Assembly (NCBI GenBank): GCA_022072455.1
Contig: JAJVHY010000004.1
Location: 310,001-374,000, forward strand
Length of the DNA stretch: 64,000 nucleotides
Origin: Verrucomicrobiia bacterium
GTDB lineage: Bacteria > Verrucomicrobiota > Verrucomicrobiia > Palsa-1439
Reading direction: 5' to 3'
The notes under the pieces were generated by a model. The model had not been told where the DNA came from and did no database searches. It worked only from the letters and a program-made list of their open reading frames with translations. Position numbers and translations under genes: made by a program. Position 1 is the stretch's first letter; every line of letters starts with the position of its first letter. Positions 7,719 to 62,783 of the stretch are shown here, piece by piece.

Positions 7719-8722
7719 GCGCCCTCCGGCAGGTGGACTTCGCGGCCTTCCTTCGCGGCCAACTCCGCCGCAAAGACCGGCAACACCGCGCGAGCGCCAT
7801 CTTCGAGCGCCGGGTAGTTTGGTTTGCCGGTGCGAATCGCCTCGTGCCATTCGAGGAGGTTCTTGAACTCGTGCTGCGGGTCGGAAGCCGGCAGTTCGAC
7901 CGGTACGCGCGGCTCTTGCGGTCCGCGGAGACGTTCCTGAAACCAGGCTTTCCGCTCAAACGTGTTCAGGTACAAGTTGCCCTTCGTCCCGAAGATGCGC
8001 AGTTCGTGGCAATACGCCGTGACGTGGTAGCAGTTCAACGTGCCGACCAACCCGCTCGCGTGCCGGAGCAATACATTCGCCACATCCGCGGTCTGTGTGA
8101 CGGGGTTCGCGTCGTACCGCATCATCGCCTGCACCGCCGTGACCGGGCCGAACAACCAGTTCAAGCCATGCAACGCATGCACGCCGCATTGAAACAGCAT
8201 CCCGCCGGGATTCTTGTCGGCCAACCCGCGCCAATCGCCGGGTTTAATCTCCAGTCCGCCCGAGTGCGACGAGTTCTCCTCGTAGGCCGCGACGACGCCG
8301 AGCTTGCCGGCGGCAATATAGTCGTGCGCCAACTGCAGGAGATTGTCGCTCGCGCAATGGTTGTGTCCCAACCCGACGACCTTGCCGGTCTCGCGCTGGA
8401 CGCGGCGCAGTTCGTTCACCTCCGCGACCGACGGGCACAATGGTTTCTCCACAAACACATGCAACCCGGCCCGCATCGCTGCGATGCTCAAGGCCGCATG
8501 CGAATCCGCGCCGGTGCTGATGACGACGCCTTCGAGTCCGGGATGCTTCAACATGGCGGCGAAGTCGGGGTACGGCTGGGCCGACTCTTCCTGCGCGGCT
8601 TGCGCCAGCCACTCCGGCTTCCGGTCACAGACGGCGGCAATCCGAAACAGACCAGTCTGGCGCAGCAAGTGCCGGCGATGTGCACCGAAGTTTGCCACGC
8701 CAATCATTCCCACCTGCATCAT
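7715..8722 (-). CDS. Gfo/Idh/MocA family NAD(P)-dependent oxidoreductase
   Basis: A 335-residue dehydrogenase. It has the N-terminal Rossmann fold (VGMIGVANFGAHRRH), the signature VEKPLCP with catalytic Lys93 or so in EKP, and the substrate-side motif GGMLFQCGVHALHGLNWLFG that supplies a conserved His. Members oxidise or epimerise sugars and sugar acids, or act as retaining glycosidases through transient oxidation; which applies cannot be told from sequence. Two adjacent ATGs (8722 and 8719) are possible. Either way the start overlaps the stop of the upstream GH42-like gene by 4 or 1 bases, and its own stop overlaps the GH35 start by 4 bases. It is therefore translationally coupled on both sides. 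Confidence 0.88.
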   Translation of the reverse strand: MMQVGMIGVANFGAHRRHLLRQTGLFRIAAVCDRKPEWLAQAAQEESAQPYPDFAAMLKHPGLEGVVISTGADSHAALSIAAMRAGLHVFVEKPLCPSVAEVNELRRVQRETGKVVGLGHNHCASDNLLQLAHDYIAAGKLGVVAAYEENSSHSGGLEIKPGDWRGLADKNPGGMLFQCGVHALHGLNWLFGPVTAVQAMMRYDANPVTQTADVANVLLRHASGLVGTLNCYHVTAYCHELRIFGTKGNLYLNTFERKAWFQERLRGPQEPRVPVELPASDPQHEFKNLLEWHEAIRTGKPNYPALEDGARAVLPVFAAELAAKEGREVHLPEGA

Positions 8723-10797: not shown

Positions 10798-10911
10798 CGA
10801 GCAGCTTCTTCTTAACAAAGCCAACAATTCCCTGCATTAACTATCGTGCTTCAACCAGCGCGGGCGCGATTCGACGATTGGATTGGACAAGAAGTCGCCC
10901 CGTGGCCGCAG

Positions 10912-29458: not shown

Positions 29459-29537
29459 GTCTCTGCTCCATTCTGGTTCTGGCACTATAACTCGTGCGGG
29501 GATTGCAATGCCTTAACGATCTGGCCAAACACTCGGA

Positions 29538-39595: not shown

Positions 39596-40000
39596 TGGTT
39601 GCCGATGGCAAGCCAGTACCCGCTCAGATTATGCTATAATTCGATGATATCGTTAAGGCCGAAGCCAGCACCGCATGGTATGGTCACCCAGTTAAGGCCG
39701 GGATTAAGACTCGTGATCAACAACGCACGACAATGTCCATTCCGTTGTAACACCGCAGGTTCGGTGGGGGCGCTCACCCTCCGGGAAGCAGGCAATATCA
39801 TCAACGCACCCAGGGATCCGAAAGCAGTCGAGGTCAAAATCAAACACTCAGTCAAATTGCAGCCGGGGTTTTTACGGTTTGTGCTCCCTGTGTGTTTACT
39901 GCTGGCGGCGGCAGTGCCGAAAATGCATGCGGCGACGGCGACTTGGACCAATTACGTCACCACGCTTTCCGACTACTGGACTAACAGCGTCAATTGGAAT
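39596..40000 (+). repeat. Leader direct repeat, copy 1
   Basis: A block of 405 bp nearly identical to 43093-43517. It covers the promoter, a long leader, the signal-peptide region and the first mature residues of the PEP-CTERM protein. Differences are scattered point changes, a 1-bp indel and a 21-bp insertion in copy 2. It marks a recent tandem duplication or gene conversion of the gene fronts. Confidence 0.85.
39632..39640 (+). promoter_or_regulatory. Extended -10 promoter upstream of the first PEP-CTERM gene
   Basis: TGCTATAAT is a perfect TGn-TATAAT extended -10 box. No good -35 is seen 17 bases upstream, as is usual for extended -10 promoters. Transcription would start near 39647, leaving a leader of at least 33-66 bases. 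The same box is conserved at 43129-43137. Confidence 0.55.
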
Positions 40001-42970
40001 CCGGTGACTGTCCCCGGCGCGACTGCCAATAACGACGCACATATGACCAATGACGTGGCGCTCACGTACACCAACATCCTCAATTTCGGATTGTCCGCTG
40101 CCATTCGCACCAATTCGCTTGTCAACCCCTCTGGTGAAGCATGGCTGGTTGTTACGAACAATGCTGCAGGGACAGGGGTGAACCTCACCAATACGGTCTT
40201 CGTTTTGAACAGCGGCGGGCGACTGCAAATCGACAGTGGCGCGGTGGTCACCGGGATTACTACGTTCACTTGGTTGGGCACCAATGGCGCCATCTATCTC
40301 AACAACGGCGGCAAGCTGTTCACAGCCGCCGCGGTCACCATCGGCAACGGCATCTCGAATGTCCAGGCCACCGTCAGCAGCCTCAGCCCCACGGGTCAGG
40401 GCGGTACCTGGAATTACCTCGGTCTGGGCCTGACGGTTGGCTCCGGGGCATCCACCGGCACTGTGCTGAACGTCACTGGCGGGATCCTTACCAATACCGG
40501 GGTTGTCACCGTCGGCAGCGGCACTGCCAGCGCGTTCAATCGGATGACCGTCACCAACGCCACGCTGTTCAGCACCGGACTCGCGGTCGGCTCCAACTCC
40601 TCGAACAATCAGCTGTCGGTGTTGTCCGGTGCGACGTGGAACATGCTGAACAACGCGGGGACCATCGGCGGCATCGGCGCAGCCGCGACCGGCAATGTCT
40701 TGATGATCAATGGCGGCACCCTCACCAACCTTAACCTCCTCTATGTCGGCAATGGTGGAGCCAAGCAGAACAGCCTGGTCCTCACCAATGGCGGCAAACT
40801 TTTTCTCACGCTAGATCTCACCGTTGGCGGCAATGGCCTGAACCACAGCAACAGTGCGACCATTGGCGGCGTCGGTGCAGAGGTTACGCTTTCCGCCTCT
40901 CGAAACATAGTGGTCGGCATGGCTGGCGGCGCCAGCGGCAACACGCTGACCGTCACCAATGCCAAAGTCTTCGGCATTTTGCACGTCGGCGGACGAGGGG
41001 ACTTTGGTGCGGGTAATGCCGTTACAAACAACACCGTGATCCTCTACACCAACACGGTTTGGAATAATAATGGCGGAACCCTGACCATTGGAGGCGCTCC
41101 CTCGTCGATTAGCAACTCACTGGTCATCAATGGTGGTGTGCTGACCAATGTCAGCAGCGGGGGCGTCAGCGTTATCGGTCATAACCAGGCTGTTCCCGGC
41201 TCCCCGACCTTTGGCAACAGTCTGACGGTCAGCAATGGCGGCCGGTTATACATCCCTGGCGGGCTCACGGTGGGGAACTATGCAGGGGCCAGTAACAACG
41301 CCTACAACGTGGGCGGCCTCGGCGCGATGAGCACCGTGTCCCACCAAGGGATCACTGTGGGCAACTCGGGTGGCTCCGGCAACACGCTGACCGTGACCAA
41401 TGCCTATATGTTCGCTGGGGGAACGGGACAGCTGAATATTGGCTGGGGTTCCAGCACCAACAACAGCGTCTCCGTCTTGGCGGATGGCACTCTCAATTTG
41501 GCCAACAGCTACATCTACATCGGTTTCAGCGGTAGTAGCCCTTTCAACAACCAGATGATCGTCAACGGGGGCACCGTCACCAACGTCAATACCGTTGCCT
41601 TGGGCCAGTCTGTGGCGGGGTACAACGGCAGCCTGACAATCTCCAATAACGGCAAATTCTTTGGCGGAGCGGTCTACGTCGGCAACACCGCCGGTTCGAC
41701 CAACAACAGCTACAATGTCGGCGGCTTCGGCCTGCCCAGTTTCGCCTCCAATCAATTGATCAGCGTCGGCGCGGTCGCCAATGCCAACAACAACCGGCTG
41801 ACGGTGACCAACGCCACCTTGCTCAGCGGCGCCACCACAATCGGCAACGGCTCGTCGAGCAACACCGTCACCGTCCTGAGCGACGCGACCTGGAACCTGC
41901 TCGCCGGCAATCTCACCGTCGGCAGCGGCACGGCGACCGGTAACGTCCTGACGATCAACGGCGGCGGCGTCCTCGAAGCCAGCGGACTCGTCACCGGCAC
42001 CGGGGCCGGCAACCTCATCACCAACTTCGGCGGCGTCTTCCAGTTCACCACCGCCACGCCGACGATCAACACCAACGGCAATGCCGGCGGCAGCATCTTT
42101 CTCAGCGGCGGTACGATCGCCTTTCGCAACGTCAGCAGTGGGCTGAACCTCACGAACAACACCGACACCGCCCGGCTGGGGCGGCTGACGTACAGCGGCG
42201 ACAACACGCTGCGGTTGAATAATTCGACTGCGACCAACACCGTCGTCGGTGGCTACACGTTCCAGACCGGCGGGGCGTTCAACAACTACAACCGGCTCGA
42301 AATGATCGGCGCCACCAACGCCATCACCGGCACCGGTGTCACGATTGGCAGTGGCGGCTCGTTCCTCGCCAGCAACACGGTGGCGACGTTCAGCGGGGTG
42401 TTCACTAACCACAGCGCGAATGCCCGGCTCATCGACAGTGCGGTGAACTTTACCAACGGCCTGCACGTGGCCGGCACGCTCAGCCTCGTCAACAGCTACG
42501 TCAAAGGCGGCGGGACCAAGACGATTGACGGGTCGGGTCGGATCGAAGGCAACGGCACGATTGTTGGCGACGCGACAGTCTCGGGTGTGATTGCGCCCGG
42601 TTTCGGTCCCGGCACGTTGGTGTTCAGCAACAACCTGACGTTGGCCGGCAGCTATCAGGCAGACTTCGGCGACGGCGGCAACGATCAACTCATCGTGGTG
42701 GGGGATCTAACTTTGACAGGAGCGACGCTGGATCTGACTGTCGGCGGTGGCTTGACCGGCGCGGCGTATGTGATTGCGAGTTACGGGGATTTGTTTGGGA
42801 CGTTCAGTGTCACCAACGGGATGCCGGTGGGGTACACGTTGGATTACAACTACAACAGCGCGAATCAAATCGCGATTGTCGTAATACCGGAGCCAGGACC
42901 ACTTGCTTTAGTCGTCTTTGGGCTTGTGGCACTGGGGACGATCACCCATTACCGCCGGGCCCGATTGTAA
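39713..42970 (+). CDS. PEP-CTERM surface protein with beta-repeat (autotransporter-like) passenger
   Basis: About 1085 residues. A signal peptide (LRFVLPVCLLLAAAVPKMHA, then ATATW) lies about 45-65 residues after the chosen GTG. The body is a Gly/Asn/Thr/Ser-rich beta-helix-type repeat: units like VTVLSDATWN, TGNVLTINGG and NSLTVSNGG recur about every 25-45 residues. The C terminus is a PEP-CTERM signal: VIPEPGPLALVVFGLVALG followed by a TM and HYRRARL. PEP-CTERM proteins are processed by an exosortase at the cell envelope; none is encoded in the window. The start is uncertain: GTG 39713 is conserved in the paralog, ATG 39680 is an alternative whose frame is not conserved, and a later TTG could also be used. 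The protein is probably an extracellular-matrix or surface component (inference). Confidence 0.85.
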   Translation: MINNARQCPFRCNTAGSVGALTLREAGNIINAPRDPKAVEVKIKHSVKLQPGFLRFVLPVCLLLAAAVPKMHAATATWTNYVTTLSDYWTNSVNWNPVTVPGATANNDAHMTNDVALTYTNILNFGLSAAIRTNSLVNPSGEAWLVVTNNAAGTGVNLTNTVFVLNSGGRLQIDSGAVVTGITTFTWLGTNGAIYLNNGGKLFTAAAVTIGNGISNVQATVSSLSPTGQGGTWNYLGLGLTVGSGASTGTVLNVTGGILTNTGVVTVGSGTASAFNRMTVTNATLFSTGLAVGSNSSNNQLSVLSGATWNMLNNAGTIGGIGAAATGNVLMINGGTLTNLNLLYVGNGGAKQNSLVLTNGGKLFLTLDLTVGGNGLNHSNSATIGGVGAEVTLSASRNIVVGMAGGASGNTLTVTNAKVFGILHVGGRGDFGAGNAVTNNTVILYTNTVWNNNGGTLTIGGAPSSISNSLVINGGVLTNVSSGGVSVIGHNQAVPGSPTFGNSLTVSNGGRLYIPGGLTVGNYAGASNNAYNVGGLGAMSTVSHQGITVGNSGGSGNTLTVTNAYMFAGGTGQLNIGWGSSTNNSVSVLADGTLNLANSYIYIGFSGSSPFNNQMIVNGGTVTNVNTVALGQSVAGYNGSLTISNNGKFFGGAVYVGNTAGSTNNSYNVGGFGLPSFASNQLISVGAVANANNNRLTVTNATLLSGATTIGNGSSSNTVTVLSDATWNLLAGNLTVGSGTATGNVLTINGGGVLEASGLVTGTGAGNLITNFGGVFQFTTATPTINTNGNAGGSIFLSGGTIAFRNVSSGLNLTNNTDTARLGRLTYSGDNTLRLNNSTATNTVVGGYTFQTGGAFNNYNRLEMIGATNAITGTGVTIGSGGSFLASNTVATFSGVFTNHSANARLIDSAVNFTNGLHVAGTLSLVNSYVKGGGTKTIDGSGRIEGNGTIVGDATVSGVIAPGFGPGTLVFSNNLTLAGSYQADFGDGGNDQLIVVGDLTLTGATLDLTVGGGLTGAAYVIASYGDLFGTFSVTNGMPVGYTLDYNYNSANQIAIVVIPEPGPLALVVFGLVALGTITHYRRARL

Positions 42971-50095: not shown

Positions 50096-52537
50096 ATGCA
50101 TGACAATCCCGTAATTGAGCTCGCGCGGAACGGAGCGCTGAAGGTTACCGTGCGGGCGCGCTCCGGCGCTCCGGCGGCCGAAGAATATGCCGCCGAAGAA
50201 TTGCGCCGCCACCTGCAGGAAATGACAAGGGCCGGCCCCTGCCGGCGTTTCCGGTTTCACGCGGCCCCACATCGGATCTTCATCAACGATCGGGAAGCTG
50301 CCGCCCAGTCCGGTCTTGATGTGCCTGCCGACTTGGGTGTCGAGGAGTTCCTGATCGCAACGCAGGGCCCCGACCTGCACGTCCTGGGTGGCGGGCCACG
50401 GGGCGTGCTCTACGGTGTCTATCACTTGCTCGAATCACTCGGCTGCCGGTGGTTCACACCCGAGATCAGCCGCATCCCGAAACGCCGAACCCTCCGGCTC
50501 GCGCCGCTGTCCGTGCGGGCGAAACCGGCATTCGAGTATCGCGACAATTTCAACTGGGACACCGGCGACCCCGTCTGGCGAGTCCGGAACCGATTCAACG
50601 GGTGGCACACCCCCCTGCCCGACTACATGGGGGGCCAGGTGACCTACGGGGACGGGCTGTTCGTGCACACGCATTTCAGTCTCGTGCCGCCGGAACTCTT
50701 GTTCGACCAGCATCCGGAATTCTTCGCCATGCAGGGCGGTCGCCGCCGGCGCGATGCTGGCCAATTGTGCATGAGCAACCGCGAAGCCATGCGCGTGGCG
50801 GCGGAGGAGGTCCTGCGTCGCATGCGGGCAGAGCCGCGAGCGACGATCTTTTCCGTGTCCCAGATGGACGGCGGCGGATACTGCGAATGCCCGGACTGCA
50901 ACGCGGTGGCCGCCGAGGAAGGCGCACAGAGCGCCAACGCGCTGCGGTTCGCCAATGCCGTGGCGGAAATCACCAGCCGCGAGTTTCCCGATAAGTTGAT
51001 CGATACCCTGGCCTACGGATGGACCGTGGACGCGCCCCGGCACACCCGCCCGCATCCGAACGTGCGTGTGCGGCTGTGTTCGATCGCCACCTGTCTGGCG
51101 CATCCGCTGGGCACGTGTGCGGACGACGGCAGCGGCTTGGCCGGCAATGGCGCTCAGTTCCTGCGCGCTTTGGAGGCTTGGGGACGGATGACGAATCAAC
51201 TTCACATCTGGCACTACTGCACGGATTTCTCCCATTCGGTGCTGCCAGTGCCGAACTTCGAAGAGTTGCAGGGGAATATCGCCTTGTTCAAACGTCATAA
51301 GGCGTATGGGATTTTCATGCAGGGGTTCGGCGACGAGGGCGGCGGTGCCGAGTCTCAGCTACTGCGCGGGTATCTCATCGGCAAGTTGCTGTGGGATCCA
51401 AAAACGCCCCTCTGGTCAACCGTGGACGACTTTCTTGGCGGTTGCTACGGCCGTGCCGCCACGCCGGTGCGCCGCTACTACGACATCTATCATCAGCGCC
51501 TTCGCGAAGACCGCCGCTTCCATTTCAGTCTCTATGAGCCGCCAGCCAGCCGCCTCTTCGACGAAGACTTGGTCGCACCGGCCGACACCGCCCTCGCCGA
51601 GGGAGAACGCCTTGTTCGCGGCCCCCAGCGCTTCCGGGTGCGGCTGCTGCGGGACGGCTTGGCATATGCGCGGCTCTGCCGCGCGCTGCCCACCGCCTAC
51701 CGGCTGCAAGAAGACACCTACGGTCCGACCGGAGATTCCGGCGCGCTGAGCGTCAGACTGGATAAACTGGAACAGGATTGGCGACGAGCCGGAAAACTGT
51801 TCATGGGCGAAGGCAATCCGACGAAAGATGTGGTGACCTCCATCCGTCGCCGGCTGCGATCACATCCGGTGGATTGGCTGCGGGACGGCGACCGCGCGGT
51901 GGCCATTCTTCCCACCCTTTGCGGCCAGATCCTCGAATGGCGCTGCCATGGCCGCCAGTGGCTGGTCCCGGCCATTCCGGAAGATTTCGCCTACCCATCC
52001 CCTGCCGGCTACATGGAAATCCCGGGACACGTTTACAATGTGTTTCAGTGCCGTCGGTGCGGCGATTCTCTGCAACTTAACACCCGACTGAACGATGGCC
52101 TGCGGATCACGCGAACCCTGACTCTCACCGGCAATACGCTTGCCATTGTCTCACGGATCGTAAACCGCAGCGAGAAGACGGTTCGTTGGTCGTGGGGCGC
52201 CCGGACGTTTCTGGCGTACCCAGGGGCAGGAGAAGTCGCTTTTCAATCCGCGACGGGCCCACAACGCATCGCGTGGGGAGATATTCCACAGACGTCCAAC
52301 CCACCCCACGGCGCGCGGGCTTTCGAAGAGGGGCTCCTGCCGAACGGCGAGTGGCGGGTGATTTTCGCGGGCTTCACTGTGACGCATCGGTTCAGCGGGC
52401 ATTCGTTCATCCGGACCACGCTCGGCCGGTCCGACCAGCGCCAGGGGCTGAGTCTTTATGTCTGTACGGATAATCTGAACACGGCGCCGGGTGATGGGAT
52501 TGAAGTGCGGCAGGAGTTGACCATTGAGAAGACTTAG
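50096..52537 (+). CDS. DUF4838-type glycoside-hydrolase-like protein
   Basis: An 813-residue protein without a signal peptide. The N-terminal 140 residues resemble the GH20b/GH67-N-like domain found before many glycosidase barrels (EEYAAEELRRHLQEMT, then GVLYGVYHLLESLGCRWFTP). The central TIM-barrel-like DUF4838 region carries the hallmark VSQMDGGGYCECPDC (about residues 259-273) and NALRFANAVAEI. The Cys-rich CECPDC pair may bind metal. The C-terminal 200 residues form a beta-sandwich (ITRTLTLTGNTLAIVSRIVN). Relatives lie in polysaccharide-utilisation regions, but their activity is poorly defined. It heads an operon, and its stop overlaps the next gene by 14 bp. Confidence 0.75.
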   Translation: MHDNPVIELARNGALKVTVRARSGAPAAEEYAAEELRRHLQEMTRAGPCRRFRFHAAPHRIFINDREAAAQSGLDVPADLGVEEFLIATQGPDLHVLGGGPRGVLYGVYHLLESLGCRWFTPEISRIPKRRTLRLAPLSVRAKPAFEYRDNFNWDTGDPVWRVRNRFNGWHTPLPDYMGGQVTYGDGLFVHTHFSLVPPELLFDQHPEFFAMQGGRRRRDAGQLCMSNREAMRVAAEEVLRRMRAEPRATIFSVSQMDGGGYCECPDCNAVAAEEGAQSANALRFANAVAEITSREFPDKLIDTLAYGWTVDAPRHTRPHPNVRVRLCSIATCLAHPLGTCADDGSGLAGNGAQFLRALEAWGRMTNQLHIWHYCTDFSHSVLPVPNFEELQGNIALFKRHKAYGIFMQGFGDEGGGAESQLLRGYLIGKLLWDPKTPLWSTVDDFLGGCYGRAATPVRRYYDIYHQRLREDRRFHFSLYEPPASRLFDEDLVAPADTALAEGERLVRGPQRFRVRLLRDGLAYARLCRALPTAYRLQEDTYGPTGDSGALSVRLDKLEQDWRRAGKLFMGEGNPTKDVVTSIRRRLRSHPVDWLRDGDRAVAILPTLCGQILEWRCHGRQWLVPAIPEDFAYPSPAGYMEIPGHVYNVFQCRRCGDSLQLNTRLNDGLRITRTLTLTGNTLAIVSRIVNRSEKTVRWSWGARTFLAYPGAGEVAFQSATGPQRIAWGDIPQTSNPPHGARAFEEGLLPNGEWRVIFAGFTVTHRFSGHSFIRTTLGRSDQRQGLSLYVCTDNLNTAPGDGIEVRQELTIEKT
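52512..52516 (+). promoter_or_regulatory. Shine-Dalgarno that fixes a TTG start
   Basis: AGGAG lies exactly 7 bases before TTG 52524, inside the end of the DUF4838 gene. It is the only well-placed site, and the TTG is followed directly by a signal peptide. This supports a TTG start with 14-bp gene overlap. Confidence 0.65.
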
Positions 52538-55100
52538 CCCCTTTGCCGGTTACATCTGCATTCTGCTCACGGCGGTCTCGTTCGTGACGGCCCGGGCAGA
52601 AGACGCCTTGTACCCGCGCCCCCGTCAATTCAAGGGAGCCACGCCGGCCGAGGTGCGGACCTGGCAGAAGGAATCCCGCGATTTTCTGGCCAAAACGCTT
52701 TTCGGCCGCGCCATGCCGGACAAGATTGACCTCAAGATTACAGAGGAGCGGATTGCCAGCAAAGGCACGTTCGATCTGTACCGGGTGATTTATCAGTCCA
52801 CCCTTTCGCGCACCAATTACGCTCTGGTTTCCGTGCCGAAGGGCCAAGGGCCGTTTCCCGCCATTCTCGCGCTGCATGGGCACGAATGCGCGACCGATCC
52901 CGAGGCCTTCCTCCGGGAGGGGCATGTTGACGACTTCTGCCGTTATTTCGCGCAGCGGGGGTTCGTGGTCGTCTGCCCGGATGTGCTCAATCACCAGTTG
53001 CAGCCAGAAGCTGGCTTCACACTCATCGGCACCTGGCTGTACGATGCGTTGCGGTGTCTGGACTACCTGGCGGCGCGCAAGGATGTCGATCCCGACCGAA
53101 TCGCGTCGGTAGGACTATCCACGGGCGGATTCCTTTGCCTGTACGCCGCGGCATTGGATGAGCGGATTAAGACAGCGGTGCCCGCCGGCGCCTATTCCAC
53201 GATGAAACACGACTTTGCCCATTTCAAATGTCCGCCCGGTTGCGATTGCGGCACATCGAAAATCGAGGGTTTTCGCGATCTGGATTATTGCGATGTGGCG
53301 GGCCTAGTCGCACCTCGCGCGCTCCGGGTGATGCACGGGAAGCAGGATCCGGCTTTCTACCCAGGCACCGACCCCAAGAGCATCGTCGGGACCTCGCAAA
53401 CAGCCGTCATGAACCAAGGTGATTTCGATGCCGCCGTAGCGGAAACGCGGAAAATCTACCAGGTCTTCGGAAAGCCCGAACTCTTCGACGTGTACTGGCA
53501 TCCCAAAGGGCACGCTGTGGACAATCCGGCGGCCTTTGATTCGATCCGGAGCCGGCTTGGCATCACCACACCTCTCGTGACTCTCGCCAAGGTCACGCTG
53601 GATGGCCTTTTCGGCGAATTCATGGTCCTGCAACGCGAACAGCCAATCTCGATTTGGGGACGAGCCACACCGGGCGAGCATCTGGTTGTAACACTCGGCA
53701 ACCAGTCGGTGAACGCCACGGCGGATGCGCAAGGGAAATGGCGTGTCTCGTTTGCCGCCATGAAGGCCGGGGGGCCGTACGCGTTGAAGGCCGAGGGCGA
53801 CACGGTGGCGAGGGCGCGCGATGTGCTAATCGGCGATGTCTGGGTGTGCGGCGGGCAGTCGAACATGCGGTTCAGCATGGGCCAGGCCCTGGGCGGCAAG
53901 GAATTCCTGCAGAACACCTACACCAATCTGCGCGTCTGTCCGATGGACGGGCCGATTCGCAGCCGGCCGATACTGGATGCGCCTCCAGGCACGTGGGCCA
54001 TTGCCGGTCCGGGAGCTCCGGCCTGTTCCGCCGTCGCCCAGGCCTTCGGTCGCGAGCTTCAGGCGCATTTGGGCGTTCCCATCGGCCTGATCGTATGCGC
54101 GGCCAATTCCACGCCGATCGAGTCGTGGATGCCGAATGAAGCATTCAGTTCCGACCCCGAACTGAAATACATCCTCGCTGAAATGGACAAAGCGATCAGC
54201 AACCAGTGCGCCGAATTGGATGCCATGCCGGCCAAATTCGAAGCCTGGCGAAAAGAAGCGGACCAGCGCGAGCGCGCCGGCCAGACGGTGGAAGGCCCGC
54301 CAAGTTGGGGCAAAGGGGATCCGCGGCAGAGCATTTTCCGGCCCGCCGTCTTGTTCAACGGGTGCATTGCCCCTCTGACACAACTGCCGATCAAGGGCGT
54401 GATCTGGTACCAGGGCGAATCGAACGGTAGCATGGCAGATGAATATCGCCGCGAACTTCCCGCGCTGATCCAGGGCTGGCGCGCCGCGTGGAAGCAACCA
54501 GACCTCCCCTTCCTGATCGTCCAGTTGCCCACCTTCCGACCGCAACGCGTCGAAACGAACGGTTGCACCTGGGCGGAGCTGCGCGAAGCGCAGTTGATGA
54601 CCTGGCAGAAGGTCAAGAACACCGGCATGGCCGTCACCATTGACCTTGGCGTCGATCCCAAGGATCCGTCACAGGACCCGCTGCATCCTCCCAACAAGAT
54701 ACCCATGGGACAGCGCCTCGCCCTGACGGCGCGGGCTGTCGCGTACGGTGAGAACTTGGTCTATTCCGGCCCCATCTACAAAGCCATGAAAGTGGAGGGC
54801 GGGAAAGTTCGTCTGGCGTTCTCGCACATCGGCGGCGGACTCTTGGTGAAAGGCGACGCATTGAACGGATTCACCCTCGCAGGGGACGACAAGAACTTCC
54901 TGCCGACCACGGCTGTTGTGGAAGGCAGCGAGGTGGTTGTTTCCTGCGACAAGGTTCCCGCGCCAGTCGCCGTCCGCTACAACTGGGCATATGAACCGAC
55001 ACCGCTGGGCAACCTGTACAACAAGGAAGGGTTGCCGGCATCGCCGTTCCGTACGGACGACTGGCCGGCGCTCACAACGGGAGTCAAGTGGTGGTTCTAA
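52524..55100 (+). CDS. Exported alpha/beta-hydrolase - sialate O-acetylesterase (SASA) fusion
   Basis: An 858-residue two-domain esterase. The signal peptide MRRLSPFAGYICILLTAVSF ends near TARA. Residues 30-350 form an acetyl-xylan-esterase/dienelactone-hydrolase-like domain: GLSTGGF with nucleophile Ser199, LALHGHE, and a late YWHPKGHA supplying His. Residues 360-858 form a SASA/SGNH esterase: beta domain FGEFMVLQREQPISIWG, then VWVCGGQSNM with Ser446, GVIWYQGESNG, and DPLHPPN with Asp718/His721. All catalytic residues appear intact. This would remove acetyl groups from two kinds of position on a glycan. SASA enzymes (CE20-like) include xyloglucan acetylesterases, which fits the GH95/GH29/GH35 set (inference). 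Only 2 bases separate it from the next gene. Confidence 0.85.
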   Translation: MRRLSPFAGYICILLTAVSFVTARAEDALYPRPRQFKGATPAEVRTWQKESRDFLAKTLFGRAMPDKIDLKITEERIASKGTFDLYRVIYQSTLSRTNYALVSVPKGQGPFPAILALHGHECATDPEAFLREGHVDDFCRYFAQRGFVVVCPDVLNHQLQPEAGFTLIGTWLYDALRCLDYLAARKDVDPDRIASVGLSTGGFLCLYAAALDERIKTAVPAGAYSTMKHDFAHFKCPPGCDCGTSKIEGFRDLDYCDVAGLVAPRALRVMHGKQDPAFYPGTDPKSIVGTSQTAVMNQGDFDAAVAETRKIYQVFGKPELFDVYWHPKGHAVDNPAAFDSIRSRLGITTPLVTLAKVTLDGLFGEFMVLQREQPISIWGRATPGEHLVVTLGNQSVNATADAQGKWRVSFAAMKAGGPYALKAEGDTVARARDVLIGDVWVCGGQSNMRFSMGQALGGKEFLQNTYTNLRVCPMDGPIRSRPILDAPPGTWAIAGPGAPACSAVAQAFGRELQAHLGVPIGLIVCAANSTPIESWMPNEAFSSDPELKYILAEMDKAISNQCAELDAMPAKFEAWRKEADQRERAGQTVEGPPSWGKGDPRQSIFRPAVLFNGCIAPLTQLPIKGVIWYQGESNGSMADEYRRELPALIQGWRAAWKQPDLPFLIVQLPTFRPQRVETNGCTWAELREAQLMTWQKVKNTGMAVTIDLGVDPKDPSQDPLHPPNKIPMGQRLALTARAVAYGENLVYSGPIYKAMKVEGGKVRLAFSHIGGGLLVKGDALNGFTLAGDDKNFLPTTAVVEGSEVVVSCDKVPAPVAVRYNWAYEPTPLGNLYNKEGLPASPFRTDDWPALTTGVKWWF

Positions 55101-55102
55101 GC

Positions 55103-56374
55103 ATGACGAACAATCCCATGAAAGACGTCTTTGAAAGAAGAACGAATGGGCGGTCCAAGTTCTCGTTTGTCGTTGTCGCGGCGGCGGTGACTCTTCTTTT
55201 TGCCCCGGCGTCCAGCCGGGCTGATTTCAGTGTCGCCAACATATTCGGCGACCACATGATCCTCCAGAGGGGAGTCGCCGTGCCCGTCTGGGGGCGGGCC
55301 GATCCGGGCTCAGAAATCACGGTGCGGATGGCCGAGCGCACCGCCGCAGCCAAGACGGGGACGGACGGCCTCTGGCGGGCCGAGCTGCCGGCGATGGATG
55401 CCGGGGGGCCTTACGAGATGACGATCTCCGGTCCTGCAAGCATTGTGCTCAAGAATGTGCTCGTGGGCGATGTCTGGCTCTGCGTCGGCGATGCCGGTAT
55501 GCAGAAAATGGCCGGTCAGGTGCCAGTCGCCACACAGATCCTCGCCCGTCAGCCGGCTTCGTTGCGGACGTCCGTCCCGGGAACGCAGTCAACGTCCACG
55601 TCGGCGCCGGATTTGTCCCGCCGCACCGGCTGGTCCATGGGCACACACGTCAACTCGCAGTACTTCTCCGCCATCGGCATAGCCTTTGCGGATGAATTGC
55701 GCGAGCGCTTAGAGAAAAAGGATCTTCCCATCGGCCTGATTCAGATTGCGGGTCCGAACACGCCCATCGAAGCCTGGGTCCCACGCGGTTCGCTCACCGT
55801 CAATCCGGAGACAAAACTGCTTGTGGATGCGTACGATCAGGCGGTTGCGTCCTACCGCAAGGCGACGGAGGCGCTAATTCCCACCTACAAGCAGTGGCGC
55901 GCGGATATGGAGAAGGCCGAACAGACGGGATCCGCCTGGCCCCAGTCGCCCAGCCTGCCGCCCGAACCCCGCTCCAACAACAGTAAGCCCTGCGGCTACT
56001 TCAACGGCGTTATATCTCCGCTTGCCTCATTCCCGGTGAAAGGCGTGGTTTGGAGTCACGGGGAAACCGATGTGAATCGAGCCGGATTGTACCGCCAGAT
56101 CTTCCCGATGGTCATCCAGAGCTGGCGCGATGCTTGGAAATCCCCGGATCTGCCCTTCTTGTTCGTCCAACTCGGCGCGTCCGGCGCAAAGGCCGGAGAA
56201 GCGAAAGAAACAGCATGGGCGGCGCTGCGCGAGGCGCAGAAATCGGCCGCCGACCTTCCAAAGACCAGCATGGTAACGATTCTGGATGTTCAAGGATCGG
56301 ACGCTCTCCTCCAGATCGGCAGGCGTCTGGCGGAAGCTGCGCTGAAGACGGCTTATGGGAAAGCCACGCAGTAG
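55103..56374 (+). CDS. SASA-domain protein lacking the catalytic serine (pseudo-esterase)
   Basis: A 423-residue exported protein (signal segment SFVVVAAAVTLLFAPASSRA). It keeps the family layout: FGDHMILQRGVAVPVWGRAD, VGDVWLC, and PVKGVVWSHGETD. The catalytic GGQSNM motif reads VGDAGM, with Ala131 at the Ser position. The oxyanion YQGESN motif reads SHGETD. The C-terminal DxxHPP dyad is absent because the protein ends about 100 residues early. Sequence elsewhere is well conserved, with no frameshifts, so it is a maintained non-catalytic paralog rather than decay (inference). It may bind acetylated glycan or pair with the active paralog upstream. Confidence 0.85.
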   Translation: MTNNPMKDVFERRTNGRSKFSFVVVAAAVTLLFAPASSRADFSVANIFGDHMILQRGVAVPVWGRADPGSEITVRMAERTAAAKTGTDGLWRAELPAMDAGGPYEMTISGPASIVLKNVLVGDVWLCVGDAGMQKMAGQVPVATQILARQPASLRTSVPGTQSTSTSAPDLSRRTGWSMGTHVNSQYFSAIGIAFADELRERLEKKDLPIGLIQIAGPNTPIEAWVPRGSLTVNPETKLLVDAYDQAVASYRKATEALIPTYKQWRADMEKAEQTGSAWPQSPSLPPEPRSNNSKPCGYFNGVISPLASFPVKGVVWSHGETDVNRAGLYRQIFPMVIQSWRDAWKSPDLPFLFVQLGASGAKAGEAKETAWAALREAQKSAADLPKTSMVTILDVQGSDALLQIGRRLAEAALKTAYGKATQ

Positions 56375-56419
56375 AACAACTATCGAACGCAGGAACAGCG
56401 AGAAAACAGAGGAGATCGA

Positions 56420-57997
56420 ATGACGAACACAATGCGGTTGTGGTTACTGGTTGCCATGCTCCTGCCCTTCAGTGCGCGGGCGGAGCTGAAGTTGAGCGGC
56501 CTTTTTTCCGACCACATGGTCCTGCAGCGAGACGCGCCATGCTCTGTCTGGGGCTCAGCCACACCCGGCGCTGAGATTACGGTTCAAATCGCCGGCCAGA
56601 CGGTGAAGGCCAACGCGGACGCGGGCGGACGCTGGCTTGTCAAACTGGCGCCCCTGCCGGCCGGTGGCCCCCTCGAACTCGTCGTCTCCGGCGGCGGGAA
56701 GACCATCACGATCAAGGATGTCCTGGTGGGCGACGTCTGGATCTGTGGCGGGCAGTCGAACATGGTGCTTCCCTTAAGCCGGGCGCTGGGCGCCGCCGAG
56801 GTGCTGACGAACACCTACGCCAAGCTGCGGTTGTCGCTGGCCGGGTCGCCCGTGCGCGGACAACCCGTGCTCGAGGACTCGGCCGGGAGCTGGGCTATCG
56901 CCGACCCAAGCTCCATGGGTGGTTTCTCGGGAGTCGGTCTGATTTTTGGCCGCGAATTGCAGCAGCATCTCGGCATTCCGATCGGCCTCATCCAATGCGC
57001 CGCGAATGGGTCGGTGGCGGAAGCTTGGACTCCGCGGGAAGCGATGGCCACCAATCCGGCGCTGAGCGACATGATCGAGATTGTGGATAAAGCCATCGAC
57101 ACCCATCGTTCGCGGTTGGCCGCCTGGCCAGACGCGTTCACGAACTGGCTCAAAGAGTCCGACAACCGGGAACGGCGCGGGGAACCGATCCCGCCACCGC
57201 CCTCGATGGGACAGGATCCGCGAGTCAACCCCTACCGGCCTTCCGGGATGTTCAACGGCGGCATCGCGCCGTTGACGCGGTTCGCCATCAAGGGCGTGGT
57301 CTGGTACCAGGGAGAATCGAACGGCGGTTTTGCCTACCAATACCGGGAACTGTTTCCCGCGCTCATCGCCGGCTGGCGGGCGCACTGGAAGCAGGGTGAC
57401 TTCCCTTTTCTGTTCGTCCAACTGCCAACCTACCGGCCGCGGAATCCCGAAACCAACGGTTGCTCCTGGGCCGAATTGCGGGAAGCGCAACTCATGACGT
57501 GGAAGCGCGTGAAAAACACCGGCATGGCCGTGACGATTGACCTCGGAGCCGATCCCAACGATCCCAAGCAGGATCCCCTCCATCCGCCGAACAAGATTCC
57601 GGTGGGCCAGCGGCTGGCGCTGGTTGCCCGCGCCGTGGCCTACGGGGAGAAGGTCGTCGCTACCGGCCCGATCTATGATTCGATGACCAGCGAAAGCGGA
57701 AAGATCCGGCTCAAGTTCTCGCACATCGGCGGCGGGCTTTCGGTCAAAGGCGACCGGCTCGAAGGCTTCACGATTGCCGGCGCGGACAAAGTCTTTGTTC
57801 CGGCTGCCGCCGCAGTCAACGGCAACGAGGTGGTTGTATCCAGCGACAAGGTGCCCGCGCCGGTGGCGGTCCGGTACAACTGGGACTATGAGCCGAAACC
57901 GCTGGGCAACCTCTACAACAAGGAAGGCCTACCGGCTTCGCCCTTCCGGACCGACGACTGGCCCGGGTCGACGGCGACAGCGAAGTACTGGTGGTAG
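56420..57997 (+). CDS. Sialate O-acetylesterase (SASA/CE20-like), catalytically intact
   Basis: A 525-residue exported esterase (signal peptide MRLWLLVAMLLPFSARA). The start ATG 56420 has GAGGA 7 bases upstream. It has the beta domain LFSDHMVLQRDAPCSVWGSA, then VWICGGQSNM (Ser113), GVVWYQGESNG, and QDPLHPPN (Asp385/His388). The whole is collinear with the C-terminal domain of the 52524-55100 fusion, including the ending EGLPASPFRTDDWP, so the two are close paralogs. It probably removes O-acetyl groups from sugars in the periplasm, exposing the glycan to fucosidases and galactosidases. Confidence 0.9.
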   Translation: MTNTMRLWLLVAMLLPFSARAELKLSGLFSDHMVLQRDAPCSVWGSATPGAEITVQIAGQTVKANADAGGRWLVKLAPLPAGGPLELVVSGGGKTITIKDVLVGDVWICGGQSNMVLPLSRALGAAEVLTNTYAKLRLSLAGSPVRGQPVLEDSAGSWAIADPSSMGGFSGVGLIFGRELQQHLGIPIGLIQCAANGSVAEAWTPREAMATNPALSDMIEIVDKAIDTHRSRLAAWPDAFTNWLKESDNRERRGEPIPPPPSMGQDPRVNPYRPSGMFNGGIAPLTRFAIKGVVWYQGESNGGFAYQYRELFPALIAGWRAHWKQGDFPFLFVQLPTYRPRNPETNGCSWAELREAQLMTWKRVKNTGMAVTIDLGADPNDPKQDPLHPPNKIPVGQRLALVARAVAYGEKVVATGPIYDSMTSESGKIRLKFSHIGGGLSVKGDRLEGFTIAGADKVFVPAAAAVNGNEVVVSSDKVPAPVAVRYNWDYEPKPLGNLYNKEGLPASPFRTDDWPGSTATAKYWW

Positions 57998-58054
57998 CCG
58001 GGATTCACACATGAAACGCGTAATTCAGCATCCATCGAACGACAAGGGGAGAAG

Positions 58055-59296
58055 ATGACAAAGACAACAATCACGCGACTCGTACAAACATGGGCAGCCA
58101 TCTGTCTGATGTTCCCGTCCGTCATCGAGACCCGGGCCGACCTGCTTGTGAACGGACCCTATGGTGATGGAATGGTTATTCAGCGCGATGTGCCAGTGCC
58201 GGTCTGGGGCACGGCGGCTCCGGGCGAAGAAGTGACGGTCGCGTTCAACGGCCAGACCGTTTCCGGCAAGGCCAGCGCGGACGGCGCGTGGAAGGTCATT
58301 TTGGCGAAAATGTCGGCGGGCGGCCCCTGGGACATGGAGATCAAAGGCCAAAGCAGCGTGACCTTGAAGCGAGTCTATGTCGGCGATGTCTGGCTCTGTG
58401 CCGGCGGGCAATTGGCGGATCTAGCCGCCGGCAACGTCAAGGGCACGGCGCAACTGATTGCGCAGCCTGTGCCGCTCTTGCGGATCGGTGTGCTGGCGCG
58501 CGCCAGCGTGGGTGCGCCCGTCTCGCGGTTCGCCGGCCGCAACGTCTGGATGGAAGCGTCCATGAGCGGTGGGGTGGCGGGATATTCGGGCCTGGGTCTC
58601 TATTTTGGGATGGAACTGCAAAAACAGCTCGGCGAGCCGCGTATGCCTGTCGGCATCATGGTCGGGACCTCGGCCAATACTCTCGTCGAGTCGTGGACGC
58701 CGCGCGCCGCGCTGGAAGCAGACGCGGAGTTGAAACCGATCGCGGAAGCGTACGACAAGGCCGTCGCCGACTATCGAAAATCAGCGGAGAACTACATTCC
58801 CCTTTTCCAGCAGTGGGTCCGGGACATGGATCAGGCGGAAAATGCGGGCGCTTCCTATCCCCAGGGTCCGCCTCTCCCGCCCGAGCCGCGCTCTGACAAC
58901 CGCAAGCCGTGCGGTTTTTACAATGGCACCATCGCCCCGCTAATTCCGTTTCCAGTCAAGGGCGTCGTCTGGAGTCATGGCGAATTGAACATCCAGAAGC
59001 CGGAGCAGCACAAACGCCTCTTGCAGGCGTTGATCGGCGGCTGGCGGGCGGCGTGGGGTGGGGCGCAGATCCCCTTCCTGATGATCGAAGTGTCACCTGC
59101 CGTGCCGGACCCGGCGGCGGGGGCCGACGCTCAGTGGGTCGCGCTTCGCGAGTCGCAGAAGGCGGCCCTCAGCCTGCCGGGCACCGCGATCATTCCGACA
59201 GCCGACATTGGCAACAAGGCCGAATCGATACCGGAGATCGCCAAACGTTGCGCGCAGGCAGCGATGAAAACTGCTGGCGCCAGTGTGTCGAAATAA
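58055..59296 (+). CDS. SASA-domain protein lacking the catalytic serine (second pseudo-esterase)
   Basis: A 413-residue exported protein; ATG 58055 has GGGAGAA directly upstream. The layout matches the pseudo-esterase at 55103: YGDGMVIQRDVPVPVWGTAA, VGDVWLC, RKPCGFYNGTIAPL and FPVKGVVWSHGELN. The catalytic motif GGQSNM reads GGQLAD (Leu120), the YQGESN motif reads SHGELN, and the DxxHPP dyad is missing with the same early C-terminal end. It shares the SHGE and PPLPPEPRS-NRKPCG features with the other dead copy, so the two inactive proteins form their own subfamily. Confidence 0.85.
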   Translation: MTKTTITRLVQTWAAICLMFPSVIETRADLLVNGPYGDGMVIQRDVPVPVWGTAAPGEEVTVAFNGQTVSGKASADGAWKVILAKMSAGGPWDMEIKGQSSVTLKRVYVGDVWLCAGGQLADLAAGNVKGTAQLIAQPVPLLRIGVLARASVGAPVSRFAGRNVWMEASMSGGVAGYSGLGLYFGMELQKQLGEPRMPVGIMVGTSANTLVESWTPRAALEADAELKPIAEAYDKAVADYRKSAENYIPLFQQWVRDMDQAENAGASYPQGPPLPPEPRSDNRKPCGFYNGTIAPLIPFPVKGVVWSHGELNIQKPEQHKRLLQALIGGWRAAWGGAQIPFLMIEVSPAVPDPAAGADAQWVALRESQKAALSLPGTAIIPTADIGNKAESIPEIAKRCAQAAMKTAGASVSK

Positions 59297-59306
59297 AGCT
59301 GAGACA

Positions 59307-62300
59307 ATGATGAACAACAGAAAAACGGCCCGGCGATTCCTTCATGCCGGTTTGGCGCTGATCGCCGCACCCGCCTTCGCGGCGGCCGAACAAGTCACCC
59401 TGACCTTCGACCAACCGCAGACGGCCGGGATCAGCGGCTTTCGTGCGTTGTGGGATACTCCCGTCGTCCTGAGCGAATCGGGCATGGTTCACATGGTTTT
59501 GAATGACCGGTTCGGCAGCGGAGTCAGCGCGATCTGGGAACCATCGCGCCGGCTAGCCTCCAAGAAGGGGAAGAACTTGGAATTTGGCACGTGGTCCGGC
59601 AACTTCTGGGCGGCCCCGAAGGCATCGCCTGACGTTCCCGGCGCGCTCGTGTTTGATGCGGTGCATCGCAGCCTGCTGGTGCGGTTTCCCGGTTCGGCCG
59701 AAGCACTGGCCGCCAAGATGAAGGAGGGGTATCAGGTCGAAAAGGTCGAACTAGTCCTGCCCTATCGCAGCACCGAACTCTGGGCGGAGGGTTATCGCCC
59801 GCCTTCCGGTATGTCGTTCGCGGGCCCGTATTGGGCCACGGCCAAGTTCCAGTGGCACGCCGTCGCCTGGATGCTGCGGCGTCCCTGGGTGGCCGATGAG
59901 CAGATCGGGCCGACGTACAATGCCTTCATCAACGGCGCGGGCTTCTGGGCGAAGTACGGCGCCCAGGATCCGGAGGAAGACCGCTTCCCGACCCAATTCG
60001 GTCCGGCCGAAGTCTCGTCCAATCAGCCGCTCGGCCGGCTCGACGTCACCGCAGCCGTGACAGATGTAACTTTCGGGCGCACCACCGGAGAACGTCTGCG
60101 CGCGCTTGAGGAAAACGGCTTCCTCGTGCGGAAATGGGAATTGTACGACGTCAAGGATTGGCGCAACGGGTACGAATGGGGCACGGCAAGCGGCGGACGT
60201 GGAATCTTGGTTCAGACGCCGCGTTTGGAGGTGGTCTTGGCCCGCGGGAAGAAACAGACCGTCAAACTTCCTGCGCCCGCGGACTTGGGGAGACTGGCGG
60301 CGCAACTGAAAAGCGACGGGCGCGGTGGCAAACCTACTGCGCTCATGCCGTCGGCGACGCAGATTGCCGGCTTCGTGGAGAAGTTCAAGTTCGCCAAACC
60401 TGCCTGGATGCCGGAATGGCAGTGGCAGCGAGTGCAGGAACTTTACGCGCTCGGCGGCGCTCGCGCTCTTCCCTCCACACCCGAAGCGTTTGGCCGGTGG
60501 ATTGACGGCCTGCTGTCCGTTCCTCCCCGCGCTTGGAGCGGTTTCGACGCGGTCGAACGCACGCAGGAGACCCTGCTCTATTCCGAAGCCATGCCCGAAC
60601 CGGTTCTTGACCATCAGAAGCTGTACTGGACCGCCTGGCTCATGCCGGATCGTGACATATCGGAACTGGTGCAGGGTTACATCGGCGGCGACAAGGCGCA
60701 GGAATACTACCAGCGGACCCGTGACTGGCGCGGCAATTTCAGCGTGTACCGGACCTATGTACACGCCATGGGCACCATGAATTTCAACCACTGGGCCACT
60801 GCCGGCGTCCTGCTCGGCGGAAAAATCATCGGTTCGGAAAAGATGATGGCTGAAGGACGCCGCGGTCTGGAGCAATGGCCCCTGCGCACTTGGTGCTGGT
60901 TCGACGGCAGCACCCAAGAATCCATTGACCATTATTATTTCGCGCATTCGCTGACGGCGCAAAAAGTGTTTGCGGATCTTGGTCCATCTCATCTGGATCA
61001 AATGATGGGCGAAAGCATCCTCGCCAAATCGGTGGAAGAACTGACTTCCTCCTATCATCCGGGCCTGCGGCGATTCATCGCTTCATCTTCGCGGACGGGG
61101 ATCGCTTACCTGCTGACGATTCAGGACGGCCTGCAATACATCATCCACACCTTGTCCCGCAACGGCGCGCTCACCGACGTTGGTAATCCGGTGACCCCCG
61201 GCAGCATGCCGGCCATCGGCACGCAACTCCCGCCGGGGCTCGTCGCCCAGCAGACCCTGAACGGGCCGTGGGCGCCCGAATGGCTGGCCGGCATGGTCGA
61301 CGACAAGCCGCTGCCTTACGAAATGACCGTGAATTACAAAATGTGGGGCAAGTATGCTCAAACGCCGCTCTGGCGCCGGACCTACTTGGGCAACCATTAT
61401 GGCCTGGCCTGCCTGGATGTGGCGGTCCAAAACGAGACCGTCCCGGCCATGGCTCAGTGGCGGCGCACACCGGCTCCCGTGACCAAGTCCGAGGAACTCG
61501 GCACGTTAATTGTCCGGTACGGCATCAACGATACCGAACTACTGGATAGCATCTTTCGCGGCAGCACGAGCCGGAACCCAAACGGATATGTCGGGGCCCA
61601 AGGTGGGCACACTGTCGCACTCCAGCACCACAACAAGCTGATCCTGCTCACGAGCCCGTATGACCAGCTCCAAGCCATCTACGGCCGTCCGATCCCCAAG
61701 GATATCTTCAGTCTGCAGACGACCATCGGGCTGTTCAATTTCCAACCCAACCCCTCCTGGGAAATGTATTTCGATGAGAAGCGCGTGGCCGAATTCCCGG
61801 CCGCCGGAAAGATTGGTCAGCGGATCACCATCCGGGATGGCGTCAGTTATATCGGGCTAATTCCCATTCCGGGAACCGACCTCGGGCGCAACCAAGATGT
61901 CGTCATCAAGCCCGGCGGCGCGCCGGTGGAGATGCAGGGTGGCGGCAAAATCGCGCCGACCTTGCTGATCGAAGCCTACAACTTCAAGGCGGATCAGCCG
62001 ATGAACACCAATTCGATAAACTGGAAAGCGGTGGATCAGGCCTATGGCGGGTTCGTGATCGAGATGGGCGACGCCACCGAGTACAAGGACTTCGCGGATT
62101 TCCAGAAACACATTCGCGAAACGAAACTGGAACTGCGCTGGGATGCCGCGGCAGCCACACTGCATCTCGTCTATCGCAGTGCCGGCGATACGCTGGAACT
62201 CGGCTACCGTCCTGAATATGCCGGAAACTGGGATCGGCAATTCCCGACCGACCAGGTTTTCCCGTACCGGCGCGTCAACGGTGCCTGGCCGTATCTCCCC

Positions 62301-62783
62301 GAGGGGATTGACCGGGACAGCACCCTGACGCAGCAGGGCCGGGCGGGACGCTTGGAGAAAAACGGCGCGGTGCTGACTTCCGCGCCGGGCAAGATGATGT
62401 ACATCCAGACCGACCCGAAATCCGGCACCTACGCCGCCCTCAATCCGTTTCCCGATCCCGCACCGTGGGTGTTCTCGGTCCCGGGTGGCGTGAGCATCGA
62501 GGCCGACGGTCTCGTCAGCATGACCCGCGCGCTCGTCCGACCGGGCGAGAACCGATTTCAGGTGGACTACGCCGTCCGCGCCGACCAACACGACGAGACG
62601 ATGGCCACCGCAATGCTGCTCTTCGGACTCCAGAATGAGCCAATCGTCGAGTTCAACGGCCAACCGCGCCAGACGATTCCTGTGGAGGTGGATGGTCGGA
62701 AAGCCTTCGTTCTGCCGCTGGCCGAAACACCGGCAGCGGATATGGTAGCCACGGCGATCGCGCGCTACCGGAGAGGAAAATGA
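59307..62783 (+). CDS. Large secreted protein of unknown function
   Basis: An 1158-residue exported protein (signal peptide RRFLHAGLALIAAPAFAAAE). Two ATGs in a row (59307, 59310) are possible. Residues 30-330 are beta-rich (EKVELVLPYRSTELWAEGY). Residues 340-700 are helical, with Trp/His-rich stretches (WCWFDGSTQESIDHYYFAHS, WMPEWQWQRVQELYALGG) suggesting an alpha/alpha barrel or toroid. Residues 700-1158 are again beta-rich (GYVGAQGGHTVALQHHNKL). The layout recalls polysaccharide lyases or glycosidases, but no family motif is recognised. Its position in the esterase operon points to glycan processing. The stop overlaps the next start by ATGA. Confidence 0.65.
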   Translation: MMNNRKTARRFLHAGLALIAAPAFAAAEQVTLTFDQPQTAGISGFRALWDTPVVLSESGMVHMVLNDRFGSGVSAIWEPSRRLASKKGKNLEFGTWSGNFWAAPKASPDVPGALVFDAVHRSLLVRFPGSAEALAAKMKEGYQVEKVELVLPYRSTELWAEGYRPPSGMSFAGPYWATAKFQWHAVAWMLRRPWVADEQIGPTYNAFINGAGFWAKYGAQDPEEDRFPTQFGPAEVSSNQPLGRLDVTAAVTDVTFGRTTGERLRALEENGFLVRKWELYDVKDWRNGYEWGTASGGRGILVQTPRLEVVLARGKKQTVKLPAPADLGRLAAQLKSDGRGGKPTALMPSATQIAGFVEKFKFAKPAWMPEWQWQRVQELYALGGARALPSTPEAFGRWIDGLLSVPPRAWSGFDAVERTQETLLYSEAMPEPVLDHQKLYWTAWLMPDRDISELVQGYIGGDKAQEYYQRTRDWRGNFSVYRTYVHAMGTMNFNHWATAGVLLGGKIIGSEKMMAEGRRGLEQWPLRTWCWFDGSTQESIDHYYFAHSLTAQKVFADLGPSHLDQMMGESILAKSVEELTSSYHPGLRRFIASSSRTGIAYLLTIQDGLQYIIHTLSRNGALTDVGNPVTPGSMPAIGTQLPPGLVAQQTLNGPWAPEWLAGMVDDKPLPYEMTVNYKMWGKYAQTPLWRRTYLGNHYGLACLDVAVQNETVPAMAQWRRTPAPVTKSEELGTLIVRYGINDTELLDSIFRGSTSRNPNGYVGAQGGHTVALQHHNKLILLTSPYDQLQAIYGRPIPKDIFSLQTTIGLFNFQPNPSWEMYFDEKRVAEFPAAGKIGQRITIRDGVSYIGLIPIPGTDLGRNQDVVIKPGGAPVEMQGGGKIAPTLLIEAYNFKADQPMNTNSINWKAVDQAYGGFVIEMGDATEYKDFADFQKHIRETKLELRWDAAAATLHLVYRSAGDTLELGYRPEYAGNWDRQFPTDQVFPYRRVNGAWPYLPEGIDRDSTLTQQGRAGRLEKNGAVLTSAPGKMMYIQTDPKSGTYAALNPFPDPAPWVFSVPGGVSIEADGLVSMTRALVRPGENRFQVDYAVRADQHDETMATAMLLFGLQNEPIVEFNGQPRQTIPVEVDGRKAFVLPLAETPAADMVATAIARYRRGK

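Follow-up and report, generated by a model that had tools for sequence, protein, structure and literature searches.

The 64,000-nucleotide stretch of DNA analyzed here in full (the window; Verrucomicrobiia bacterium, assembly GCA_022072455.1, contig JAJVHY010000004.1, positions 310,001 to 374,000) carries, at positions 52524-59296, four plus-strand genes of CE20-type esterases (Pfam SASA), all with open frames and arranged in the order active-dead-active-dead. This alternation of catalytically intact and defective genes had been noted in a first-pass annotation, and the four frames were found where it placed them, with the motifs it had assigned to them. The active copies P0001 and P0003 are followed by the dead copies P0002 and P0004 across gaps of 2 bases (P0001/P0002) and 57 bases (P0003/P0004), with two candidate starts for P0002 (ATG 55103, 2 bases past the P0001 stop, or GTG 55088). 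A scan of the region for promoters and terminators yielded nothing above chance, and all four esterase-type proteins have signal-peptide-like N-termini (read off the sequence, with no predictor). The resulting enzyme/pseudoenzyme couples have a common anatomy and a single origin, recur in a bacterium of another class and evolve under constraint, and we favor, by a modest measure, an interpretation of the dead protein as a non-catalytic partner of the adjacent secreted esterase. Coordinates of all features are collected in Table 1.

In both active copies, block I reads CGGQSNM (GQSN with the catalytic Ser), block III WYQGESN and block V DPLHPPN. The GGQS, YQGES and DxxHPP motifs for which these copies had been called intact are therefore all present, although DxxHPP itself proved to be unusual in a family that mostly has (D/N)xH. 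In a fresh alignment with 156 other non-redundant full-length homologues, the block V His of P0001 and P0003 aligns with a His kept by all 156, while (D/N)xH is found in 141 of them, almost always at a distance of 7-8 residues from the Asp that precedes it; in the other 15, block V is without (D/N)xH or otherwise different. Against this background, P0001, P0003 and P0008 (the active copy of a second genome, see below) alone have a D-P-L-H block V (PxH) in a 14-residue loop, with an Asp three places before the His. The (D/N)xH used as a criterion of CE20 is absent from P0001 and P0003, which, judged by block V, would be variant, non-standard members of this family with a predicted acetylesterase activity. 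The rebuilt catalytic loop is confined to exactly those enzymes that have a dead neighbor. We regard this as the best hint that the rebuilt block V and the dead partner belong together, though one clade amounts to a single evolutionary correlation. The two active copies of the window share 60% identity. The description of P0001 as a SASA gene holds for its CE20 part and misses the rest, as this protein is a fusion with an AXE1/DLH-like alpha/beta hydrolase (about residues 100-235, in the N-terminal third) ahead of the esterase. The N-terminal part of P0001 (52524-53560) has a GLSTGG motif, and this one protein combines two different esterase folds.

The dead copies depart from this pattern at every catalytic block. 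P0002 reads CVGDAGM in block I (55481-55501) and WSHGET in block III (WSHGE at 56051-56065); the corresponding motifs of P0004 are CAGGQLA (58397-58417) and WSHGEL (WSHGE at 58970-58984). Both lack the Ser, the adjacent oxyanion Gln, the YQ of block III and the block V His, and both stop where the SGNH domain ends. The previously reported absence of the C-terminal dyad is borne out: the block V His (universal among the 156 homologues) is missing, and so is the C-terminal beta-sandwich of ~110 residues. The catalytic Ser, oxyanion Gln and His are likewise absent from P0007, the dead copy of the second genome, and in an alignment of 188 homologous open reading frames the serine is lost, fragments aside, only in the window's dead copies and in this one protein, a pattern well removed from chance. 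The possibility that alternative alignments (GGQL, GGAT) reveal a Ser displaced by one or two residues was considered and rejected, as the positions concerned hold no Ser and neither the block V His nor the oxyanion Gln is left; block I gave no sign of a relocated serine. In SASA proteins the oxyanion hole relies on the Gln of block I, which the QGE motif of block III keeps in position (PMC9487903), and both elements are altered in the dead copies. Nevertheless, 59 of the 83 family positions conserved at >=85% are retained in at least two of the three dead copies, including Trp306 and other family-invariant residues, and many of the positions lost belong to blocks I, II (G207, G208), III and V. 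By these motifs, the dead copies appear to have a CE20 fold without being CE20 enzymes. Their WxHG and Asn208 are identical across all three proteins (at 39-48% identity), unlike YQG and G in the family, as might be expected if the old pocket had been repurposed for a new chemistry involving His308 (in place of an invariant Gln), Asn208 and Cys286. We consider such a conversion highly improbable: three sequences cannot set these sites apart from the invariant columns in general (~29%, 112/381), there is no evident acid or metal site, and block V is gone.

AlphaFold2 models were run on alignments of the window and related-locus proteins. The P0003 model (predicted local distance difference test score, pLDDT, 92.6) matches the CE20 structure 7kmm with a Z of 49.8 over 426 residues (1.6 A), spanning residues 22-514 including the C-terminal sandwich, while the P0004 model (pLDDT 88.6; Z 43.4 to 7kmm, 322 residues, 1.7 A) ends with the last SGNH helix, so that P0004 is predicted to be a trimmed yet complete SGNH domain plus an N-terminal sandwich. 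The CE20 fold of P0002 and the sandwich architecture of P0001 are assigned by sequence only. A comparison with the characterized CE20 acetylesterases XacXaeA (7kmm), Fl8CE20_II (9h4u) and PpCE20_II (9ega) (PMC8245568, PMC12313940) shows that the N-terminal sandwich and SGNH fold are common to all copies described here and that, in the active copies, the resemblance to these enzymes extends to the C-terminal sandwich and to the Ser, Gln, YQGE and His. The active copies differ from them in the absence of an inserted ancillary domain and in having D-P-L-H for (D/N)xH, whereas the dead copies lack the Ser, Gln, His and C-terminal sandwich. In P0003 as well as P0004, the place of the ancillary domain is filled by a long helix with a proline-rich loop. 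In Fl8CE20_II this domain lies over the active site and contributes to the coordinated water of the triad, and the block V Asp both coordinates this water and anchors the ancillary domain (PMC12313940).

Constraint on the dead copies was estimated from the orthologous pair P0004/P0007 (Nei-Gojobori method, NG86), with a nonsynonymous divergence (dN) of 0.47 and a synonymous divergence (dS) of 1.09. The corresponding dN/dS of 0.43 is an upper bound because dS is near saturation, and it is not near 1, the value named at the outset as one that would speak against maintained pairs. In simulations of neutral evolution, a frame of dead-copy length stayed open in 0 of 200 runs at >=0.3 substitutions per site per lineage, and the codon composition of the dead genes is as in the active ones. 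Because their frames are open at such divergence, dN/dS is at most 0.43 and the modeled CE20 fold is confident, the dead copies are maintained under clear constraint and are not decaying pseudogenes. An interpretation of these genes as functionless by-products of tandem duplication on their way to loss could draw on their faster evolution relative to the active copies and on the loss of a whole domain. We give it very little credence in view of the clean frames at 39-48% identity, the dN/dS, the shared origin, the high-confidence fold, the codon composition and the retention in two classes; decay is rejected on the frames, dN/dS, fold and recurrence.

A search with a dead-copy profile over 388 genomes of the phylum returned one strong relative (469 bits; contig C45 of genome G427, which belongs to another class of the same phylum), with homologues outside the pairs scoring <300 bits. 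Its locus (L166) has the gene order GH95-like, DUF4838, type II pseudopilin-like, active P0008, dead P0007. Identities to the window amount to 64% for the GH95-like, 58% for the DUF4838, 65% for the active and 48% for the dead protein, P0007 being 48% and 39% identical to the two dead copies of the window. Thus, as anticipated for maintained pairs, the couple is present again in a genome from another class, and in all three cases the active and dead genes are adjacent on the same strand with the dead one downstream (across a gap of 50 bases in G427). The type II pseudopilin-like gene (L166:8070-8915) separates DUF4838 from the active esterase in G427, and the window has none there. No dead orthologue beyond G427 was detected in the window's own class (384 genomes) or order (11), in the classes of G427 (198), G160 (346) and G116 (288) or in the phylum draw (388), overlapping genome sets of which those at class level were scored for just the top few candidates of each genome; nor was there a dead copy among the best 80 loci from a pattern scan of genome contigs, which covered other phyla. 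With an active-copy profile (129 and 52 genomes), partner-bearing copies score at least 1045 bits and all others at most 530. The active and dead clades are known so far only together (3/3, in two of the genomes searched).

The history of the couples was approached via a maximum likelihood tree of 42 rows, built without blocks I and III on an alignment that ended ahead of block V; its bootstrap is not fully settled. A single clade unites the three dead copies (100/99) and a second one the three active copies (100/99). These two clades are each other's closest relatives (99/98), to the exclusion of the remaining homologues, and a quick tree of 60 rows gives a consistent picture. The predicted clustering of dead with dead and active with active, therefore, holds with catalytic columns removed. 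An origin of each dead copy from its own active neighbor was rejected by approximately unbiased (AU) tests, both for P0001+P0002 (p 1.5e-4) and for P0003+P0004 (p 6e-5). The suggestion that the arrangement arose by duplication of a pair fares less uniformly. Among the dead copies P0004 groups with P0007 (100/93), supporting (P0002,(P0004,P0007)), and the matching topology (P0001,(P0003,P0008)) is not rejected for the active copies (AU p 0.10), but the best tree joins P0001 with P0003 (99/87). A pair duplication solely within the window's lineage is disfavored (AU p 0.036 for a P0002+P0004 clade), and gene conversion between the active copies was rejected, with no tract of unusually high identity. 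In the simplest history, one ancestral esterase would have been duplicated in tandem and the downstream copy would have been stripped of its nucleophile, its oxyanion hole, the catalytic His and the C-terminal sandwich, retaining the fold, the export signal and its place beside the active copy. The couple would then have been duplicated, and one of the couples, common to the bacterium of the other class, would have been inherited separately or, by a putative lateral transfer of the pair, have passed between classes.

The distribution of conserved sites points to what may be under selection in the dead copies. The share of invariant columns in dead relative to active copies drops to 0.3 in the C-terminal third and ~0.5 around block I, but amounts to 0.94 along the long helix (225-265) and 1.5 for the loop that comes next (266-287). 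Dead-only invariant sites are enriched in the segment 225-287 (Fisher p 0.006, for a segment picked after inspection), and an unbiased window scan of such sites gives p 0.047 with a maximum at 206-245; together these values are at most suggestive of an interface at 225-287. They also bear on a different view of the dead copy as a free glycan-binding protein, which would use its old cleft or N-terminal sandwich for bringing the esterase or glycosidases to the polysaccharide with no fixed complex. The retained fold, N-terminal sandwich and family-invariant residues (Trp306 and others) would suit this role, as would the His308 and Asn208 common to the old pocket of all three dead copies and the precedent of CE2 esterases, which bind glycan in the active site, at least as described for 2w9x and 2wab. 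However, the cleft is lined by block I, where the dead copies vary freely; they have also lost the C-terminal sandwich, and the strongest constraint falls on the helix and loop at 225-287, so that we consider free glycan binding unlikely, though a serious contender.

Our preferred interpretation, with secreted CE20 enzyme/pseudoenzyme couples in which the dead protein would associate physically with its neighbor, may be outlined as follows. The dead protein would be made together with the active esterase and most likely serve as a heteromer subunit that stabilizes, positions or switches on the active copy with its uniquely rebuilt block V loop. A more specific and distinctly more tentative version, whose likelihood overlaps with that of the non-catalytic partner, takes the pseudo-esterase for a lid or activator working in trans, where other CE20 enzymes have theirs in cis in the form of the inserted ancillary domain; it would dock over the active copy via the helix and loop at 225-287 and complete or gate the rebuilt block V site, making the esterase an obligate hetero-complex. 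Acting as a decoy or brake, by competing for substrate or repressing the active esterase, is a known outcome for some pseudoenzymes and might be considered here as well. It seems quite improbable, as nothing at the locus points to inhibition and two copies beside two enzymes fit a subunit better. Several observations weigh against the partner interpretation itself. It relies on three dead sequences from two genomes, where the 3/3 linkage is a small sample and may reflect one transferred cassette; divergence is faster between the dead orthologues than between the active ones (dN 0.47 vs. 0.28, the latter with a dS of 0.96 by NG86), indicating some relaxation; the signal of the conserved segment is modest and was noticed post hoc; and the odd block V of the active copies could mean altered chemistry.

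The window (Table 1) is rich in genes for glycan degradation. The end of the DUF4838 gene overlaps the start of P0001 by 14 bases, and the exported-looking product of the gene at the other end of the esterase run has no Pfam, NCBIfam or PDB match above the cut-off. The founding CE20 enzyme, from a Xanthomonas xyloglucan locus, is accompanied by GH95 and GH35 (PMC8245568). This setting and the GH29, GH95 and GH35-like neighbors in the window point to a glycan with acetyl, fucose and galactose groups as the probable substrate. In the GH95-like protein (33667-36180), the N-x-N pair of the family is apparently missing at the aligned place; its 64% orthologue lies beside the G427 pair, and it possibly represents a diverged enzyme family. 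Within the glycan-degradation cluster, four other long frames of 679-1314 residues (8719-10827, 10912-12951 and 25541-29485 on the minus strand, 39599-42970 on the plus strand) have no Pfam match above the cut-off.

Table 1. Features of the esterase locus, of other parts of the window and of the related locus in G427
Feature	Location	Strand	Remarks
DUF4838 / GH67-N-like gene	50096..52537	+	Pfam PF16126, E 5e-84; directly 5' of P0001
P0001, active copy 1, 858 aa	52524..55100	+	signal-peptide-like start, AXE1/DLH-like domain, then CE20-type esterase
P0001 catalytic Ser codon	53859-53861	+	block V reads QDPLHPP
P0002, dead copy 1, putative CE20 pseudo-esterase	55103..56374	+	N-terminal sandwich and SGNH, no C-terminal sandwich
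P0003, active copy 2, 525 aa	56420..57997	+	N-sandwich, SGNH, C-sandwich; without inserted ancillary domain
P0003 Ser codon; His codon	56756-56758; 57581-57583	+	motif positions
P0004, dead copy 2, putative CE20 pseudo-esterase	58055..59296	+	model and motif losses
P0004 residues 225-287, long helix and PPLPPEPRS loop	58727..58915	+	conservation in dead copies
Exported-looking 1163-residue protein, family unassigned	59292..62783	+	closes esterase run, directly 3' of second pair
GH35/42-like	5730 (window)
GH29 fucosidases	20714 and 29538 (window)
GH66-like	23276 (window)
GH95	31294 (window)
GH95-like gene	33667-36180	-	83 bits only to GH95
AraC regulator	36277 (window)
PATR/PEP-CTERM-like exported protein	43194 (window)
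P0008, active copy	L166:8993-10570		G427 pair
P0007, dead copy	L166, ATG 10621 to 11904		GGATVD block I, WCHGD block III, no block V His, equal truncation

Catalytically dead paralogues are well studied in signaling and in a few eukaryotic enzymes, and a literature search by title and abstract found no CE20-type enzyme/pseudoenzyme couple. We know of no pseudoenzyme neighbor for vertebrate SIAE. This enzyme (8f9o-8f9r) likewise has a CE20 core that lacks the ancillary domain, matched by the dead copy with a Z of 41.6 and by the active one with about 46, but is a full-length, active single-chain protein. A model for the proposed partner role is provided by the trypanosome AdoMetDC/prozyme system (PMC5201418), an active enzyme with a dead paralogue, where the fold is unrelated and heterodimer formation and activation are proven, whereas here they are inferred. 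Beetles, too, have inactive paralogues of a polysaccharide-degrading enzyme, the GH28 polygalacturonase pseudoenzymes (PMC6549527), which are retained in the same degradation pathway; these are eukaryotic, have an unrelated fold and do not form adjacent couples in an operon-like run.

Overall, should the dead copy prove to be an obligate subunit, assays of such esterases as single genes would under-report their activity, and the proteins of these couples are small, secreted-looking and easily tested. If this reading is true, a family whose members differ by a lid domain in cis would gain a form with the lid in trans.

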